Assembly: GCA_026708185.1 (NCBI GenBank)
Contig: JAPOVK010000062.1
Coordinates: 62,001-126,000 of the forward strand
Reading direction: 5' to 3'
Source: Gammaproteobacteria bacterium
GTDB taxonomy: Bacteria; Pseudomonadota; Gammaproteobacteria; Pseudomonadales; Azotimanducaceae
Length of the DNA: 64,000 nt
Notes under the pieces: model-generated
What the model was told of the DNA's origin: nothing
Database searches by the model: none
What the model saw: only the letters and a program-made list of their open reading frames with translations
Shown: positions 7,484 to 60,811 of the stretch, piece by piece
Position numbering within the stretch: position 1 is the stretch's first letter
Layout of the letters: the number at the start of each line of letters is the position of its first letter
Program-made: the position numbers and the translations under genes

Positions 7484-7990
7484 TTGATCCTCGAACCGGG
7501 GAAGTGGCAGGGCCGCGGCTCGTACCGGCCGACGGACGAGTCCTTGGGTTTGCGGTTCCAAGCCACGGTCGAGGTCGACGACGACCGGCGCACCGAAGGC
7601 CTGATCGTCAATGCCACGTTGCAGGTGGACGGCGGTTCGCCGCGGTCGATCCTGGTCTACGTCGTCCCGGACGATGTCGGCACCTATGCGGTGACGGTGC
7701 GGGGTGACGGCATCGATGTGCAGGGGACGGCGAAGCTCGACAGCGAGCCGCACCTGGCGCTGCTGTGGTCGGAGGATGGCGCCGTGCATGTGACGTGCGC
7801 GGTGTTCACGCTGCCGGACACGCACGGGGTACGCGGCTACGCGAAGGTACGCGGTGACGTCTGGACGTGGGAGTTGGCGCTGCAGCCGCAGCACCGGCTT
7901 CGACGCGGCCGCCCGCGCCTTCAGACCAAGGAAGGCAAGAAGGAGGGACGCGGGAACGTCGTGTCCTTGTTCGACCGCCTGAAGCGCTAG
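7484..7990 (+). CDS. hypothetical protein, beta-rich
   Basis: A 168-residue protein I do not recognise, beginning at TTG 7484. It alternates short polar and hydrophobic strands (LRFQATVEVDDDRRTEGLIV, VTVRGDGIDVQGTAKLD, HVTCAVFTL) as in a small beta-barrel or lipocalin-like fold, then ends in a basic tail (RLRRGRPRLQTKEGKKEGR). No signal peptide or membrane helix is seen. It follows the VOC gene by 28 bases and may belong to that transcript. No clear ribosome site precedes the start. Confidence 0.6.
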   Translation: MILEPGKWQGRGSYRPTDESLGLRFQATVEVDDDRRTEGLIVNATLQVDGGSPRSILVYVVPDDVGTYAVTVRGDGIDVQGTAKLDSEPHLALLWSEDGAVHVTCAVFTLPDTHGVRGYAKVRGDVWTWELALQPQHRLRRGRPRLQTKEGKKEGRGNVVSLFDRLKR

Positions 7991-8000
7991 CGCGAGGCGA

Positions 8001-8073
8001 TGGTACGCGGGCCTCCCGGCCCGCATTGAGCCTTGTACGAGACCGGAATGCGGACGAGGAACTCCGCGTACCG
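8001..8073. repeat. nested inverted-repeat hairpin between convergent genes
   Basis: GGTACGCGG at 8002-8010 is matched by CCGCGTACC at 8064-8072, and inside it CCGCATT near 8020 is matched by AATGCGG near 8047. The unit fills the gap between two convergent genes and could fold into a long imperfect hairpin, serving as a terminator or a REP/MITE-like element. The sequence TGGTACGCGG-CCT-CCGGCCCG recurs at 31391-31412, also between convergent genes. Confidence 0.6.
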
Positions 8074-8078
8074 GGGCG

Positions 8079-9134
8079 TTACTCCTCTCCCGCCGCCTCC
8101 GCGCTCCGGCGTTCGAGCTCCTCGCGCTCGAGCCGCCTAGCCCCGCGCAGGATATTGCCCATCGAGTAGTTGCCTTCGTGGCACGCGTACTCGTAGACCG
8201 GCTTGTCGGTCTGCTTCCACACGTAGCTGCCGCTCCAAGGCCCGGTCCAAGCCGTCGGGTCGTCCACGGTGAAGTCGTAGAGCAGGTTGCCGTCCTCGAG
8301 CTTGGTGAAGCGCTCGACGAGGTGCAGGTTTTCGTCGCCGCCGTATAGGCCGGTGTCCTCGCGGAAGTTCGTGGTGTCGACGACCAGGGTGTCGCCCTCC
8401 CAGTGGCCGACCGAGTCGCCGAGCCAGCGCCGGACGTTCGGCGGGGCGTGTTCGGCGTTCATCCGCACGATCCGCGCGTCGTGGACCATCTCGACGAGGA
8501 TCATGACGTTGTCCTCGCTCTGCACGATGCGCTTGAAGTTGTTGTAGAGCCCGGGAAGCATCGGCGGTCCGGCGCTGAAGCCGAGCAGGCACCGCTCGGC
8601 CAGGGCGAGTTCTTCCGGTGCATCGAACGGCCCCGGTCCGTCCTGGTCCAGCCAGGATGCCGTGCCGTCGTTGTCGTGGGAGAACGAACTGAAGTTGTCG
8701 GCCATCTTCATCATGGCTTTCGGTGTCATGGGCGGGCGCCGGCCGTTCGGCGGGTCGTAGACGATGGATGTCCTGAACTTGCCGTCGATGGCGACCACGC
8801 CGCTGCCAGGGTCGACCCAGAACGCGTTGTAGCCGCCCACGTTGCCCGCACCGAAGTCGTTGACCCCGTCGCCGCCCTTCTTCGGCGGCGCTCGGTTCGG
8901 GTCGTTCGAGCGACCGTCGTTCAGGAACTCCGTTCCGGTGGACAGGGCTGCTGCCTCCTCGGGTGTCAGGAACTCCTTTTCGCCGAGGTCGCGGGGGCGT
9001 TCCAGCGGCGTCAACGAGCCGCCGTCGTAGTATCCGGACAGGTCGGGCTTGCCGGATTCGGTGCGCGGGATGTCCGCTGTCGCGCTCGTTGCCACCATCG
9101 CGGCGAGGACGCACAGCGCTTGAATGAGTCGCAT
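8079..9134 (-). CDS. secreted hypothetical protein
   Basis: A 351-residue protein with a clean signal peptide (LIQALCVLAAMVATSATA, cleavage before DIPRTES) and a mature part rich in aromatic and acidic residues. The opening GKPDLSGYYDGGSLTPLERP and the segment GHWEGDTLVVDTTNFRE are features of a secreted family common in environmental proteobacteria whose function I do not know. The region ~215-300 reads as beta strands (VMILVEMVHDARIVRMN). Likely periplasmic. It is transcribed alone, divergent from the nitroreductase at 9228. Confidence 0.75.
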   Translation of the reverse strand: MRLIQALCVLAAMVATSATADIPRTESGKPDLSGYYDGGSLTPLERPRDLGEKEFLTPEEAAALSTGTEFLNDGRSNDPNRAPPKKGGDGVNDFGAGNVGGYNAFWVDPGSGVVAIDGKFRTSIVYDPPNGRRPPMTPKAMMKMADNFSSFSHDNDGTASWLDQDGPGPFDAPEELALAERCLLGFSAGPPMLPGLYNNFKRIVQSEDNVMILVEMVHDARIVRMNAEHAPPNVRRWLGDSVGHWEGDTLVVDTTNFREDTGLYGGDENLHLVERFTKLEDGNLLYDFTVDDPTAWTGPWSGSYVWKQTDKPVYEYACHEGNYSMGNILRGARRLEREELERRSAEAAGEE

Positions 9135-49181: not shown

Positions 49182-49797
49182 CCGGCGCGGGACGTTCGCT
49201 GGTCATGACGTCCACTTGGCGACACCGCGTCTGAAGCTACGCCCGTTCGAGGAGGCGGACCTCGACACCGCCTTGGTGTTCTATCAGGACGGCGAGTTTC
49301 TCGAGGGCATGGAGGGCGAGCCGCCCTCGCTACCCGTGACGCGCGACTATCTCGAGCGCTCGGCGCGCGCGATGACCGCCAACGGTTTCTACTTCGCGAT
49401 CGTGCAACGCACGACGGGCCGGACGATCGGGGAGGTGTGTCTTCAGCGGATGAACCTGGAGCGCGGCAAGGTGCCCGGGGAGAAGGTCATGCGGCTCCCC
49501 ATCGGCATCTGGGACAAGACGCTGTGGGGTCGCGGCTATGCGAAGGAGGTGGTGCAGCGCCTGATGGTGCACGCGTTCGAAGACTTGGGCGTGGACCGTT
49601 TCTGCGCCATGGATGTGGACGCGACGAACCCGCGCTCACAACGTCTTTGGCAGAGGTGCGGGCTGCGCCGAGCCCGCGTCACCGGCCGCAAGATCGACTT
49701 TGAAATCGACCGGTCGGACTACGCGGCGCTGACCGGGTGTTCGAAGCAGAGTTCCCGGCCATCGGGGTCGCGCACCGACAGTTGCCGCATGCCGTAG
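49165..49797 (+). CDS. GNAT-family N-acetyltransferase (RimJ/RimL type)
   Basis: A 210-residue acetyltransferase. ATPRLKLRPFEEADLDTALV opens the fold; TIGEVCLQRMNLERG and GIWDKTLWGRGYAKEVVQRL hold the acetyl-CoA pyrophosphate loop (R-x-x-G-x-G/A), followed by FEDLGVDRFCAMDVDATNPR and QRLWQRCGLRR. The last ~23 residues run into the 3' end of the opposite-strand ligase gene and show no homology. ATG 49165 overlaps the preceding gene. Target unknown. Confidence 0.82.
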   Translation: MPSRIDRRGTFAGHDVHLATPRLKLRPFEEADLDTALVFYQDGEFLEGMEGEPPSLPVTRDYLERSARAMTANGFYFAIVQRTTGRTIGEVCLQRMNLERGKVPGEKVMRLPIGIWDKTLWGRGYAKEVVQRLMVHAFEDLGVDRFCAMDVDATNPRSQRLWQRCGLRRARVTGRKIDFEIDRSDYAALTGCSKQSSRPSGSRTDSCRMP

Positions 49798-51620
49798 AAC
49801 GCGACTGTGGGCGGTGGCGCGTCCACGCCACGGCCGGTGAACTGTTCGTGGAGGTCGTCGACGTTCTCGCAGAGGAAGAACAAGGCGACGTCGCCGTGGC
49901 CGTTGCGTAGGCCGCCGAGATCGTCGGGCTCCGCCGACTGCAGCATGATCGTCGCCCCCTCCATCTCGAGCTGGCACCAGTTCAACCGACCGTCGGCATC
50001 CCAGCGGTTGGTCAGGGTGAAGCCGAGTTGGTCGCAGTAGAAGGCGCGCGAGCGTTCGATGTCGGCGACGTACAAGAGCGGCATGGCGGCGCGCACGTTC
50101 TGCGCGGGTGCCGTCAACTTCGCCTTGACGACGCGGCGGAGCAGCTTGCCGGTTTCGTTGTAGGGCAGTTCCGGCCAGAAGGCGATGCTCTCCGGAACCC
50201 GTGAGGAGCGCATGTGGCTGCGCACCCAGTCCTGAAGGTCGGCGATCAGATCGTCGTTGGCGGGCGTATCGCTGTTGACGACGACCGCACCGGCCACCGC
50301 CTCCCCCCACTCTTCGCTGGGCACGCCGACGACGGCGGCGTCGCGGACCGCGTCGTGTGCGAGCAGCACGTCCTCGATCTCGCCGGGCGACATGTTCTCG
50401 CCGCCGCGGACGATGACGTCGTCGGCGCGGCCGTCGAGGAACAGGTAGCCCTCCGCGTCCAGGAAGCCGGCGTCCCGGGTGGGGAACCAGCCTTCGGTGT
50501 CGACGGTGCTGCCGCGGTCTTCGTACTCGCCTGAGACCTGCTCGCCGCGGACGTAGATCTCGCCGCGTTGGTCGGTGCCCAGGGCGTTGCCTTCGTCGTC
50601 GCGGATTTCGATTTCGATCCCGGGCAATGGAATGCCGACCGAAACCAGGCGCCGACGCACCTCTTCGGCCTCGCTGGTCGCGGCGGCTCGGTGTTCGTCG
50701 GGCCCGAGTACGGTGATCGTGGAACTGGTCTCGGTCAGGCCGTAGGCGTTGGTGAAGTCGGTGTCCGGGAACAGCGCCATGGCCTTCTCGATCACCGAGA
50801 GGGGCATCTTGCCGCCGCCGTAGGACAGCGATTGCAGGTGCGACATGCCGGCGGTCTTTTCACCCTCCAGCGCGTCGACGATCCTCGACAGCATGGTCGG
50901 CACCACGAAGGCCGTGGTGATGCGCTCGTGGCGGGCGGTCTCGATCCAGGCATCCGCGCTGAAATTGGCGAGTTGGACGACCCGACGTCCCGCGTAGACG
51001 GAACTCAGGGTCGAGGCGATGCCGGCAACGTGGTAGGGCGGAACGCATACGAGCGCCGCCTCGTCCTCGGCGGCGGACATGAACTCCACCGAACTCACGA
51101 TGTACGAGACCAAGTGCTTATGGCGCAGCACCGCGGCCTTGGGAATGCCGGTCGTGCCACTGGTGAAGAGCAGTACGCCGACGTCTTCGGGATCCATGGA
51201 GCGTTGCTCGGCATGGCCGTCGCCGCTTCGGGCCGCACCGAGGAAGGTCCCGCGAGAGCGTGCGTCAACGCCATCGCGATCCTGGAAATGGGGGAGTCGC
51301 TCATCGTCCGTCACCAGGTAGGCGGGCGTCACGCGGGCGAGAAGCGCGTCGATCTCCTCACCCGTCAGGCGGTAGTTGATCGGGACGTAGGGGACGCCGG
51401 CCCAGCCGCTCGCGAACAGCGCAACGGGAACGGCGATGTTGCTGACATCGAGCATGGCGACGCGGCTCGCGCCTGACTCGCGGATGTCGTGCGCCGCGGC
51501 ACCGGCGGCGTCGTAGAGTTCCTGGTAGGTAATGGAGGATCCGCCGTCTGCGGGGTCGGTGAACGCAACGCGGTCGCCGAAGCCGGACATCGCCATTTCC
51601 AGCAGCATCATGGTGTTCAC
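49719..51620 (-). CDS. acyl-CoA ligase (AMP-binding) fused to a VOC domain
   Basis: A 633-residue fusion. Residues ~1-505 are an ANL-superfamily ligase: P-loop LLFTSGTTGIPKAAVLRHKH (~150), A5 motif TNAYGLTETSSTITVL, A8 DGRADDVIVRGGENMSPGEI with the EIE segment, and the catalytic Lys in LPYNETGKLLRRVVK. After a short linker, residues ~513-633 form a full VOC/glyoxalase domain (MPLLYVADIERSRAFYCDQL through VRDPDGRELCFEHP). The ligase would activate a carboxylate as acyl-AMP/CoA; the VOC part may bind or process the substrate. Its 3' end overlaps the GNAT gene by 79 bases on the other strand. Confidence 0.85.
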   Translation of the reverse strand: MNTMMLLEMAMSGFGDRVAFTDPADGGSSITYQELYDAAGAAAHDIRESGASRVAMLDVSNIAVPVALFASGWAGVPYVPINYRLTGEEIDALLARVTPAYLVTDDERLPHFQDRDGVDARSRGTFLGAARSGDGHAEQRSMDPEDVGVLLFTSGTTGIPKAAVLRHKHLVSYIVSSVEFMSAAEDEAALVCVPPYHVAGIASTLSSVYAGRRVVQLANFSADAWIETARHERITTAFVVPTMLSRIVDALEGEKTAGMSHLQSLSYGGGKMPLSVIEKAMALFPDTDFTNAYGLTETSSTITVLGPDEHRAAATSEAEEVRRRLVSVGIPLPGIEIEIRDDEGNALGTDQRGEIYVRGEQVSGEYEDRGSTVDTEGWFPTRDAGFLDAEGYLFLDGRADDVIVRGGENMSPGEIEDVLLAHDAVRDAAVVGVPSEEWGEAVAGAVVVNSDTPANDDLIADLQDWVRSHMRSSRVPESIAFWPELPYNETGKLLRRVVKAKLTAPAQNVRAAMPLLYVADIERSRAFYCDQLGFTLTNRWDADGRLNWCQLEMEGATIMLQSAEPDDLGGLRNGHGDVALFFLCENVDDLHEQFTGRGVDAPPPTVAFYGMRQLSVRDPDGRELCFEHPVSAA

Positions 51621-51701: not shown

Positions 51702-52004
51702 CTAGTCGGTCTTGGGGAGCTTCTTGGCGTCTTTGACGTTGAGGGCGCTGCCACCGACGCTTAGGGAACCTTCGCCTGCCTTCACGCAGAGCACTTCGAG
51801 GGAACCGTCCTCGTTGACGTAGCGCTTGCCGATCGCCGTGCCGTCAGCGTGGTCGGCGTCGACTGCGCCGCCATTGGATTCCCCGTCGCCCATCGCTGTA
51901 CCGCCGCAGCACAGATCCACCTCGCCGTCGGGTGCGGCAATGACCATGATCTCCGTTGCGCAGACCGCGCTCTTCATGCGCTTGCCGGCTGACAAGGTCG
52001 CCAT
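51702..52004 (-). CDS. small hypothetical protein upstream of the ligase
   Basis: A 100-residue protein. The first 35 residues, LSAGKRMKSAVCATEIMVIA and DGEVDLCCGGTAM, carry two cysteine sites (VC, CC) and resemble a short uncharacterised family that I associate with acyl-CoA ligase loci. The rest is Gly/Asp-rich with KRYVNEDGSLEVLCVKAGEG. It is 81 bases upstream of the ligase on the same strand and probably cotranscribed. Divergent from the selenoprotein gene. Function unknown. Confidence 0.7.
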   Translation of the reverse strand: MATLSAGKRMKSAVCATEIMVIAAPDGEVDLCCGGTAMGDGESNGGAVDADHADGTAIGKRYVNEDGSLEVLCVKAGEGSLSVGGSALNVKDAKKLPKTD

Positions 52005-52091
52005 AGTTCTCCCCCGGGTTTCCCCTGTTTGGTGAAAAGCGCAGCATTGTACCCAATCGGCTCACAGGGCGGGGTGTATGATTCGTCGCCG

Positions 52092-52958
52092 ATGAGTGGT
52101 CAGCCGGTCCCCTACATGGCCCGGACCCGGCGCTACTACGAAGCGCAGGGGTTCGAGCGCGCCTATGTGTGGGCGCACTTCGAGGACGTACCTTTCACGC
52201 CGCTCGCGAAGCCGCTCGCGGAGTCGAAGCTGGCCGTGGTGAGTACGTCGGCGCTCTACGATCGCGAAGCCACGGATCCGCGCTACGTCGCCTCCGGTTC
52301 GATGCTTCAACCACCTCCACGGTTGTACGCCAACGACTTGGCGTGGGCGAAGAATGTGACCCACATGCACGACCGTGGCAGCTACTTCCCCGTGGAGCCT
52401 TTGAAGGGCATGGTGGACGATGGCCGCTTGGGGGCTTTGAGCGAGCGGTTCCACTGCGCACCGACCGAATACAGCCAGCGGCGCACGCGGGAAAGCGACG
52501 CCCCGGAGATTCTCCAGCGTGTCAGGGTGGATGGCGCCGACATCGCGCTGCTCGTGCCGTTGTGACCGGTGTGCCATCAGACCGTGAGTCTGATCGCCCG
52601 CCACTTGGAAGCCAACGGCGTCCCCACCGTCATCCTGGGATCGGCCTTGGACGTGGTCGAGCACTGTGGGGTGCCGCGATTCGCGTTTGTCGACTTCCCC
52701 CTGGGCAATCCCTGCGGTAGGCCGTGGGATCGGACGATGCAGACGGCAATCGTGACAGGCGCCGTTGGCCTCTTCGAAAGCGCTGAAGCACCGCGCACGA
52801 CGCTGCGTCTGCCACACCTCTGGGGCAAAGACGAAGGCTGGCGTGACGAGTATCTCGGGGTGCGCGAGGAGGACTTGGAGGCGCTTCGCCGCAAGGGCGA
52901 GGAACGCCGCGCGCTGCGGGCGCAACTGCGCACGGAGGGGCGTGTCCGCCAAGGCTGA
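52092..52958 (+). CDS. GrdB-like selenoprotein (in-frame UGA as Sec158)
   Basis: A 288-residue reading frame from ATG 52092 to 52958 that contains one TGA at 52563-52565. Both sides belong to one protein of the glycine/sarcosine/betaine reductase selenoprotein B-like family: before it MSGQPVPYMARTRRYYEAQG, LAESKLAVVSTSALYDREAT and GADIALLVPL, after it PVCHQTVSLIARHLEANGVP and PTVILGSALDVVEHCGVPRF. Reading UGA as selenocysteine gives the redox motif U-P-V-C, equivalent to C-P-V-C in cysteine homologues. A hairpin 11-29 nt downstream fits a bacterial SECIS. The chemistry is presumably a reductive cleavage or selenoenzyme redox step, but the substrate is unknown. The selA/B/C/D genes it needs are not in the window. 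Confidence 0.85.
52576..52594 (+). promoter_or_regulatory. candidate bacterial SECIS hairpin
   Basis: ATCAGAC (52576-52582) pairs perfectly with GTCTGAT (52588-52594) around loop CGTGA. A further GC/GC pair continues the stem beyond one C-C mismatch. The loop begins 18 nt after the UGA and has G at its second position, within the known limits for bacterial SelB-binding elements (loop roughly 16-37 nt away, a G in the first two loop bases). Confidence 0.75.
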
Positions 52959-53458: not shown

Positions 53459-53616
53459 GGGCTTCTCCCTAGTTGGGAGAGCAGACTACCGACTACCGCT
53501 GCGCTTGTCATGACGCGGATATGGTGGAACACTTGACCGTTGAGGCCATTGCGACATCAACCAGTTAGTGGCGGGCGGTGTTGCGCTTTTTCTAGTGGGG
53601 ATTGGGGAGACACGTT

Positions 53617-55257
53617 GTGGCACACGATATTGTGATTCGCGGCGGCGAACTGGTCGACGGAACGGGTGCTGCGCCCGTCCAGGGCGACCTCGCCATCGAC
53701 GACGGATCGATCACCGCCGTCGGCGCGGTCGACGGCAAGGGCAAGCAGGAAATCGACGCGCGGGGGCTCGCGGTAACGCCCGGCTTCGTGGACCTGCACA
53801 CGCACCTCGACGCGCAGATCGGCTGGGATCCGCAGATGACGCCGGTGAGCTGGCACGGTGTCACGACCGCGCTGCTCGGCAACTGCGGAGTCACCTTCGC
53901 GCCGTGCAAGCCGCAGGACGTCGAACTCCTCGCGGCGATGATGGAGACCGTCGAGGACATCCCGAAAAACGCCATCCTGACCGGTCTGCCGTGGGACTGG
54001 GAGGACTACGGTGGCTACCTCGACGCCATCGAACGGCTGGAGCCGGCGCTCAACGTGGCCGGCATGGTCGGCCACTGTGCGGTGCGGTTCTACGTCATGG
54101 GCGAGCGCGCCGTGGAGGAGCAGGCCACTGCCGAAGAGCGCAAGCAGATGGCCGACATCGTCGCGCAGTCCATCGACCGCGGCGCCGTCGGCTTCTCGAC
54201 CAACCGCTACCCGCCGCATAAGCTGCCCGATGGCCGCTCCATTCCGGGCACGTTCGCCGATCCGATCGAGTTGGTGGAGATTGCCAAGGCGGTGGGTCCG
54301 CGCAACGGTCTCATGCAGGCCGTGGGTGCCAACTTCGAGGTCCTGAAGGCCATGGCGGAGACAACCAAGGGGCGGATTCTCTTCAGCTACGGCACGGGGC
54401 CGCAGGAAGGTTCCGGCAAGGCCCAAGCGGACAACCTCGCGAAACTCGCCCAGCACGGTGATCTCACCGCGATCACCCAGGTCCGTGGTTCCGGCTTCAT
54501 GTTCGGTCTGCAGTCGAACCTGCCCGTTCAGGGCGAGACGTGGGATGCGTTGCGCAAGATGGACCTTGCCGGACGCCTGAAGGCGATCCGCGATCCCGAG
54601 ACGCGCGCCAAGCTGGTTGCCGAAGGCAAGGACATGAAGCGCCGCTTCCCGATGACGAACGTCTTCTACCTCGGCGACGACGAGACGCCGAACTACACGT
54701 CGCCCTCGACGGAGAACCTCGAGGCCCAGGCCGCGGCGGCGGGCGAGCACTGGGTGGAGACTTTCCTGCGCCTGTCGGACCAGACCGACGGCCGGGCGCT
54801 CTTCAACCTGCGCATGTTCAACCAGAGCCTGAAGGAGTTGGGCGACCTGTTCCGCAGCGAGCACATCTTCCCGAGCCTCGGCGATGCCGGGGCCCACGTC
54901 TCGCAGATCATGGACGCGGGCTGGCCGAGTTTCATCCTGTCGTACTGGATTCGCGAGGCGGGCCTCTACAGTCTGGCGGAGGGCGTCCGGCGGCTGACCT
55001 CGGGGCCGGCGCGCGTTTTGGGGCTGAAGGACCGCGGCACGCTGGCACCCGGCAAGCGGGCCGACGTCAACGTCCTGGATCCATCCAAGGTCGCCGAGCG
55101 GCAGCCCGAACTGGTCCACGACTTCCCCGGCGGTGCGCCGCGCTACATCCAGAAGTCGCTGGGCTACAAGACGACCATCGTTAACGGCGCGGTGACGCTC
55201 GTGGACGGTGAGCACACCGGCGCGCGGGCTGGGAAGGTGCTGCGCCACGCGGGGTAA
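53617..55257 (+). CDS. N-acyl-D-amino-acid deacylase family amidohydrolase
   Basis: A 546-residue Amidohydro_3 enzyme. DIVIRGGELVDGTGAAPVQG and LAVTPGFVDLHTHLDAQIGW (HxH metal site) open the protein; GVTTALLGNCGVTFAPCKP holds a Cys ligand region, and SLGDAGAHVSQIMDAGWPSF the late Asp. D-aminoacylases remove acyl groups from N-acyl-D-amino acids; relatives act on other N-acyl or hydantoin-like compounds, so the substrate is open. GTG 53617 follows GGGGAG at good spacing. Confidence 0.88.
   Translation: MAHDIVIRGGELVDGTGAAPVQGDLAIDDGSITAVGAVDGKGKQEIDARGLAVTPGFVDLHTHLDAQIGWDPQMTPVSWHGVTTALLGNCGVTFAPCKPQDVELLAAMMETVEDIPKNAILTGLPWDWEDYGGYLDAIERLEPALNVAGMVGHCAVRFYVMGERAVEEQATAEERKQMADIVAQSIDRGAVGFSTNRYPPHKLPDGRSIPGTFADPIELVEIAKAVGPRNGLMQAVGANFEVLKAMAETTKGRILFSYGTGPQEGSGKAQADNLAKLAQHGDLTAITQVRGSGFMFGLQSNLPVQGETWDALRKMDLAGRLKAIRDPETRAKLVAEGKDMKRRFPMTNVFYLGDDETPNYTSPSTENLEAQAAAAGEHWVETFLRLSDQTDGRALFNLRMFNQSLKELGDLFRSEHIFPSLGDAGAHVSQIMDAGWPSFILSYWIREAGLYSLAEGVRRLTSGPARVLGLKDRGTLAPGKRADVNVLDPSKVAERQPELVHDFPGGAPRYIQKSLGYKTTIVNGAVTLVDGEHTGARAGKVLRHAG

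Positions 55258-56788: not shown

Positions 56789-60811
<4,023 letters not shown>

Follow-up and report, generated by a model that had tools for sequence, protein, structure and literature searches.

A stretch of 64,000 nucleotides of gammaproteobacterial DNA (hereafter, the window) carries a reading frame that is broken by a single TGA. The question raised by this locus is whether that TGA is a stop or a selenocysteine (Sec) codon, and what kind of protein is encoded in the latter case. We infer that the apparently split gene is most likely one gene, in which UGA specifies selenocysteine. We are confident that its product is a selenoprotein and a partner-free relative of the GrdB and PrdB proteins, a judgement that applies to the protein apart from its substrate.

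An in-frame UGA and the selenocysteine machinery

The PrdB/GrdB-like selenoprotein gene lies at 52092-52958 on the forward strand and encodes 288 residues. Reading of the frame bore out the claim of the preliminary description that it is interrupted at 52563 alone: it begins with ATG at 52092, ends with TGA at 52956-52958 and has a single internal stop, the TGA at 52563-52565. On the evidence of the frame and of aligned relatives this codon is read as Sec158, in the context ...LLVPL-U-P-V-C-HQTVSL. The start codon is uncertain, the frame being open upstream with TTG at 52029 (in the ORF list) and GTG at 52074 in frame; ATG 52092 is where the relatives align. A plain ORF list gives the two halves as separate ORFs, as had been predicted for a standard gene caller.

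The codon at the Sec site was compared in the best 80 of 140 stretches encoding a relative; 18 of these have TGA there, and the other 62 a Cys codon (TGC or TGT). The alignment of U and C homologues therefore gave TGA or a Cys codon at the site in 80/80 loci, and agreed with the earlier placement of the UGA at the first Cys of C-P-V-C. Within the genome collection, the closest relative is L016, from a Gammaproteobacteria MAG, with 92% identity to the window gene. The dN/dS ratio between the two was 0.135 before the TGA and 0.109 after it, and the corresponding values in two other pairs were 0.140/0.153 and 0.145/0.099. Both halves of the gene are under purifying selection in the three pairs compared. 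When 293 genomes of the order were scanned at E 1e-20 or better, 16 carriers with 23 matches were found, with TGA in 23/23; one of these matches, L111, has an extra TAA besides the TGA. A Cys-form relative in a MAG (L068, 6001-6771) has one early stop, for which mutation and assembly error are indistinguishable.

Presence of the gene went together with presence of selA, which was found in 16/16 carriers of the order scan as compared to 23/277 non-carriers (Fisher p 4e-16). Among the 50 genomes searched of the 80 loci, selA was found in 16/18 with TGA forms and in 13/32 with Cys forms (p 0.001), this table and that of the order having at least one genome in common. No selA match was found in two TGA-bearing genomes, G304 and G306, both of them MAGs.

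The host assembly is a 5.13-Mb draft of 65 contigs, estimated to be 97.08% complete with 3.66% contamination, and the window lies within its contig C47. Genes for selA (C3:245827-247152), selB (C3:243974-245797) and selC, the tRNA-Sec (C3:243822-243911; called by ARAGORN as SeC with anticodon tca), form one cluster, and selD (L101, C3:379969-380874) is located elsewhere on C3. Selenocysteine use by this organism, as proposed earlier, is thus supported by the presence of selA, selB, selD and tRNA-Sec in the same draft assembly. Since the sel genes, the window gene and three paralogs of it are spread over five contigs, their common ownership rests on binning. The selD gene sits inside a 775-residue open frame, and its fusion to another domain is possible.

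The SECIS hairpin and its conservation

The SECIS was assessed by folding and by covariation. Its apical hairpin (52576-52594, forward strand; ATCAGAC-CGTGA-GTCTGAT) has 7 bp and a 5-nt loop, CGUGA in the RNA, and 10 nt separate the TGA from the stem. This is the 7-bp hairpin with a CGTGA loop, starting 11 nt past the TGA, that the preliminary description had reported. A longer SECIS fold including a lower stem (52568-52602, forward strand) is predicted from the single sequence only. The 40 nt behind the window TGA fold with -17.9 kcal/mol, a value equalled by 0/200 shuffles (z -3.62). Single-sequence folding of eight TGA forms gave z values from -3.62 for the window gene to -0.35 for L121, a paralog from the same assembly, for which 66/200 shuffles fold equally well; the range in three Cys forms was -1.37 to 0.57.

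The hairpin is under RNA-level selection in the TGA forms only. Across the seven pairs of the stem, 39 distinct TGA forms showed 91.6% standard pairs and 37 double-change cells against a shuffle mean of 10.7 (0/500 as high), and slid controls gave 0 to 5 such cells. Stem covariation gave no signal in the Cys forms (39 of the 62 Cys loci), where 2 double-change cells were counted against 2.8 in shuffles and pairing was 73.6% as compared to 73.9% in shuffles. Pair 19-27 was intact in 36/39 TGA forms versus 7/39 Cys forms, and pair 16-30 in 39/39 versus 21/39. L103 and L105 were excluded from the first hairpin set as copies of the window gene and of L025, respectively; the later TGA-form set leaves out the near-copies L019, L020, L023 and L025 and takes in L169-L171. 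The GU of the loop is also dictated by an invariant Val codon, Cys forms included, and is therefore not independent evidence.

The pairing reaches into the protein sequence, since changes at residues 164 and 166 go together while the stem is preserved. Ser replaces Thr164 in 11 of the 23 order sequences, and 8 of these 11 also have Gly for Ser166 with an intact stem. The remaining 3 (L112-L114) are the TGA-form hairpins that carry a U-U mismatch.

In the decoding proposed here, Sec-tRNA made by SelA and SelD would be carried by SelB to the UGA at 52563, and the hairpin at 52576-52594 would position SelB and the Sec-tRNA so that translation continues through to a single product of 288 residues. 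The listing of the two halves as separate ORFs would fit a pseudogene, or a pair of genes parted by a real stop, but this has a negligible probability given TGA at the identical codon position in 18 related loci and in 23 matches of the order scan (genomes partly overlapping), purifying selection downstream of the TGA, compensatory changes in the stem and the Sec machinery in the assembly.

Family placement, neighbouring genes and proposed chemistry

A Pfam search with the window protein gave no match at E 0.1. The best NCBIfam match was PrdB (TIGR04483), which covered residues 35-241 with 77 bits (cut-off 300), and the next matches, weak ones, were to GrdB-type models. A profile of the family, searched against 265 frames, matched two GrdB-type proteins from genome G226 in their C-terminal half (E 1.9e-22 and 1e-21). 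When seven family members were aligned with these two proteins (nine rows), P100, G111, U/C158, C161, E173, R196, L204, G205 and A224 were invariant. Profile homology, which spans the U/C-x-x-C site, places the window protein in the GrdB/PrdB superfamily. The earlier label 'GrdB-type' can thus be kept in the sense of distant homology to GrdB-type proteins, but not beyond it, the nearest curated family being PrdB and the partners of the known enzymes having not been found in the searches given below. The AlphaFold2 model of the window protein had a pLDDT of 94.5 and a pTM of 0.93. A PDB sequence search returned two matches only (E 0.7 and 0.78), and Foldseek with the model gave none at E 0.001 or better among 1175 fold matches. 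With no close solved relative or fold match, the confident model therefore names no activity.

Profile searches found four family members in the host assembly (G000), with TGA at the Sec site in all. The three paralogs of the window gene are L121 (C56:42546-43316; UPVCHQSV), L125 (C8:7408-8028; UPLCTRTV) and L171 (C31:160115-160738; UPNCTRAV), the latter two with a longer C-terminal part. A single clade for the Cys forms was rejected (AU p 1.8e-07). The number of U/C changes was 4 in the quick tree and 6 in the careful tree, and the well-supported (starred) branches force at least 3 such changes for the Cys group. With the two GrdB-type proteins as root of the quick tree, the deepest lineages are all Sec. 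This suggests that Sec was ancestral and was followed by several Cys replacements; the sample was chosen by likeness to the window gene and its deep lineages come from the same order, and is therefore biased towards the kin of that gene. Alignment A3 is without L068, which was placed in the quick and the careful tree with its stop coded as X. L111 entered the quick tree in masked form; the careful tree excludes both L111 and L108. As the Cys forms are not one clade and selA occurs in part of their genomes, the family offers a natural Sec/Cys set in which to compare the cost and gain of selenium.

Three further loci are recorded here. In G021 (L128, 2933-7836), selA and a selB-like frame lie divergently beside a PrdB-like Sec gene, followed by a CoA-binding domain protein. 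In G255 (L142, about 7700-8700, reverse strand), a GH-TGA-GSC frame near a PrdB-like Sec gene resembles the UGSC selenoproteins in the excerpted text of PMC2398784. A gene of G467 inside a 1359-aa open frame had the look of a fusion and was rejected, the open frame upstream being read as accidental.

The divergent neighbours of the window gene are a 100-aa protein of unknown family (51702-52004, reverse strand) and an AMP-dependent acyl-CoA ligase fused to a VOC/glyoxalase domain (49719-51620, reverse strand), each present in 8 stretches including that of the window. An amidohydrolase-family protein (53602-55257, forward strand) lies downstream and recurs in 3 stretches including that of the window. 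The predicted model of the 100-aa protein was poor (pLDDT 50.8) and was not used. VOC proteins also adjoin two other paralog classes (L171 and L129). Farther along the window, a ribonucleotide reductase alpha subunit (56789-60811, reverse strand) matches the model on both sides of an intein-like insert of ~350 residues (roughly residues 451 to 806), whose final His-Asn is followed by Gly, and not by Cys, Ser or Thr.

Class III CoA-transferase gave 19 matches in the best 80 of 140 loci plus the window stretch, 15 of them within 200 nt. These adjacent genes occur in three arrangements, namely divergent (L026, L028), upstream in line (L035, L036) and downstream in line (11 Cys loci), and 4 of the 15 loci have TGA genes. 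None was found beside the window gene, nor within 200 nt in 65 of the 80 loci. In 26 later stretches a CoA-transferase III lay within 200 nt in two, L170 (TGA) and L174 (Cys), and it lay some 3 to 5 kb off in L171, L137 and L129. Acyl-CoA dehydrogenase was directly upstream in five loci among the 80 and the window stretch. The neighbours are simple codon-score calls and not those of a published gene finder, with evident antisense shadows in some loci, and some loci have short flanks at contig ends. Most loci are devoid of CoA-type neighbours, and loci of the same genus are not independent, which makes a binomial p too strong; the neighbourhood is therefore a lead and not a proof.

Because of these neighbouring gene types, a CoA-activated acid is put forward as the candidate substrate. 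That the window protein is a Sec/Cys reductase acting on a CoA-activated substrate is accordingly a tentative proposal, drawn from the neighbours and held with somewhat less than even confidence. By homology the protein is related to PrdB and to the C-terminal half of GrdB; it stands alone and would work without PrdA, GrdE-type or GrdA partners. The substrate may be an organic acid that a class III CoA-transferase or an acyl-CoA ligase converts to its CoA thioester. The invariant UPxC/CPxC suggests U158 as the catalytic selenol and C161 as the resolving thiol. U158 would attack the activated substrate and the reduced product would be released, after which the U158-C161 selenenylsulfide may be re-reduced by a thioredoxin-like donor.

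A rival that concerns function, and not the Sec reading, is a general thiol-disulfide or peroxide-type redox selenoprotein. UxxC is indeed common to redox selenoproteins in the excerpted text of a marine survey (PMC1088965), but we consider this unlikely, as the NCBIfam matches are solely of the GrdB/PrdB kind with none in Pfam, and no thioredoxin-like protein is present among the best 50 of the 1175 fold matches, all of which fall short of E 0.001. The recurring neighbours, too, suggest acyl-CoA chemistry.

Partner subunits and comparison with known reductases

Known reductases of the GrdB/PrdB type require a second component. The GrdE-type family PF09338 was found in 0/16 order carriers and in 1/293 order genomes, namely G226, a non-carrier that served as positive control. 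It was also found in 0/65 further carrier genomes, a search that had no positive match anywhere; at least one of the 65 is an order carrier, G302 and G076 sharing their selA place. The PrdA model (TIGR04480) matched in 0/16 order carriers, with no true PrdA genome as positive control; on G226 it gave two weak partial matches, on the PF09338 genes of that genome. GrdA (PF04723) was likewise found in 0/16 order carriers, with G226 positive by two copies, each with TGA. When 20 selected neighbour proteins were scanned against Pfam, no PF09338 or GrdA protein was found.

As the 16 carriers yielded no PrdA, GrdE-type or GrdA partner, we have not filed the window gene under D-proline or glycine reductase, and the window protein is probably neither. 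The possibility that the protein is PrdB of D-proline reductase, the label used in marine metagenome surveys, agrees with TIGR04483 being the top curated match and with 'proline reductase PrdB' as the name given to UxxC proteins in excerpts of PMC1088965 and PMC2398784. This is nevertheless very unlikely in view of the low score against the curated cut-off and of the partner searches, read with the limits on their controls given above, which found PrdA in none of the order carriers, PF09338 in none of these or of the further carriers, and neither PF09338 nor GrdA among the selected neighbours.

The marine surveys bear on how widespread this protein may be. In the excerpted texts, the Sargasso survey has 42 'proline reductase PrdB' selenoproteins with UxxC (PMC1088965) and the GOS survey 235 (PMC2398784), and proline reductase, which surveys rank with the prominent marine selenoproteins, makes up 6.4% of marine selenoprotein genes in a 2021 survey (PMC9402790). 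These proteins, likened to the window family by description only, are UxxC proteins of the GrdB/PrdB kind from marine sources, as are those of the window family. The GOS table assigns pfam07355, in contrast to the absence of a Pfam match for the window protein; the proteins are named D-proline reductase, and PrdA goes unmentioned in the excerpts of the survey text. Judged from these descriptions, the survey 'PrdB' selenoproteins may be the window family, which may thus be known already under an ill-fitting name. A literature search of titles and abstract openings, mostly outside subscription papers, found no PrdB-like proteins without PrdA. If the survey proteins are the window family, their function probably differs from D-proline reduction, and a considerable part of marine selenium use has an unexplained purpose.

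A broader proposal, which we regard as possible but doubtful, is that of a widespread and misnamed family of partner-free Sec/Cys reductases, with four Sec paralogs in this assembly, acting on CoA-activated organic acids by cleavage or reduction. GrdB-type selenium chemistry would here operate without coupling to the pyruvoyl subunit or to the formation of acetyl phosphate. GrdA/B/C and PrdB are described in excerpts of a 2026 review (PMC13188914), which lists PrdB as a UxxC selenoprotein of D-proline reductase (TIGR04483). With PrdB, the small Sec subunit of that enzyme, the window protein has in common the redox-site U/C and the profile match, although it falls far under the curated cut-off and PrdA was not found in the 16 order carriers. 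As compared to selenoprotein B of the GrdB/GrdF/GrdH type (TIGR01918, NF040795), the window protein is without the N-terminal half, no GrdE-type or GrdA partner was found in the 16 order carriers of its family, and its motif is U-P-V-C-H-Q-T in place of U/C-G-T-C-T-R-C. The C-terminal half of these proteins nevertheless aligns with the window protein, and U/C158, C161, E173, R196 and L204-G205 are shared between them.
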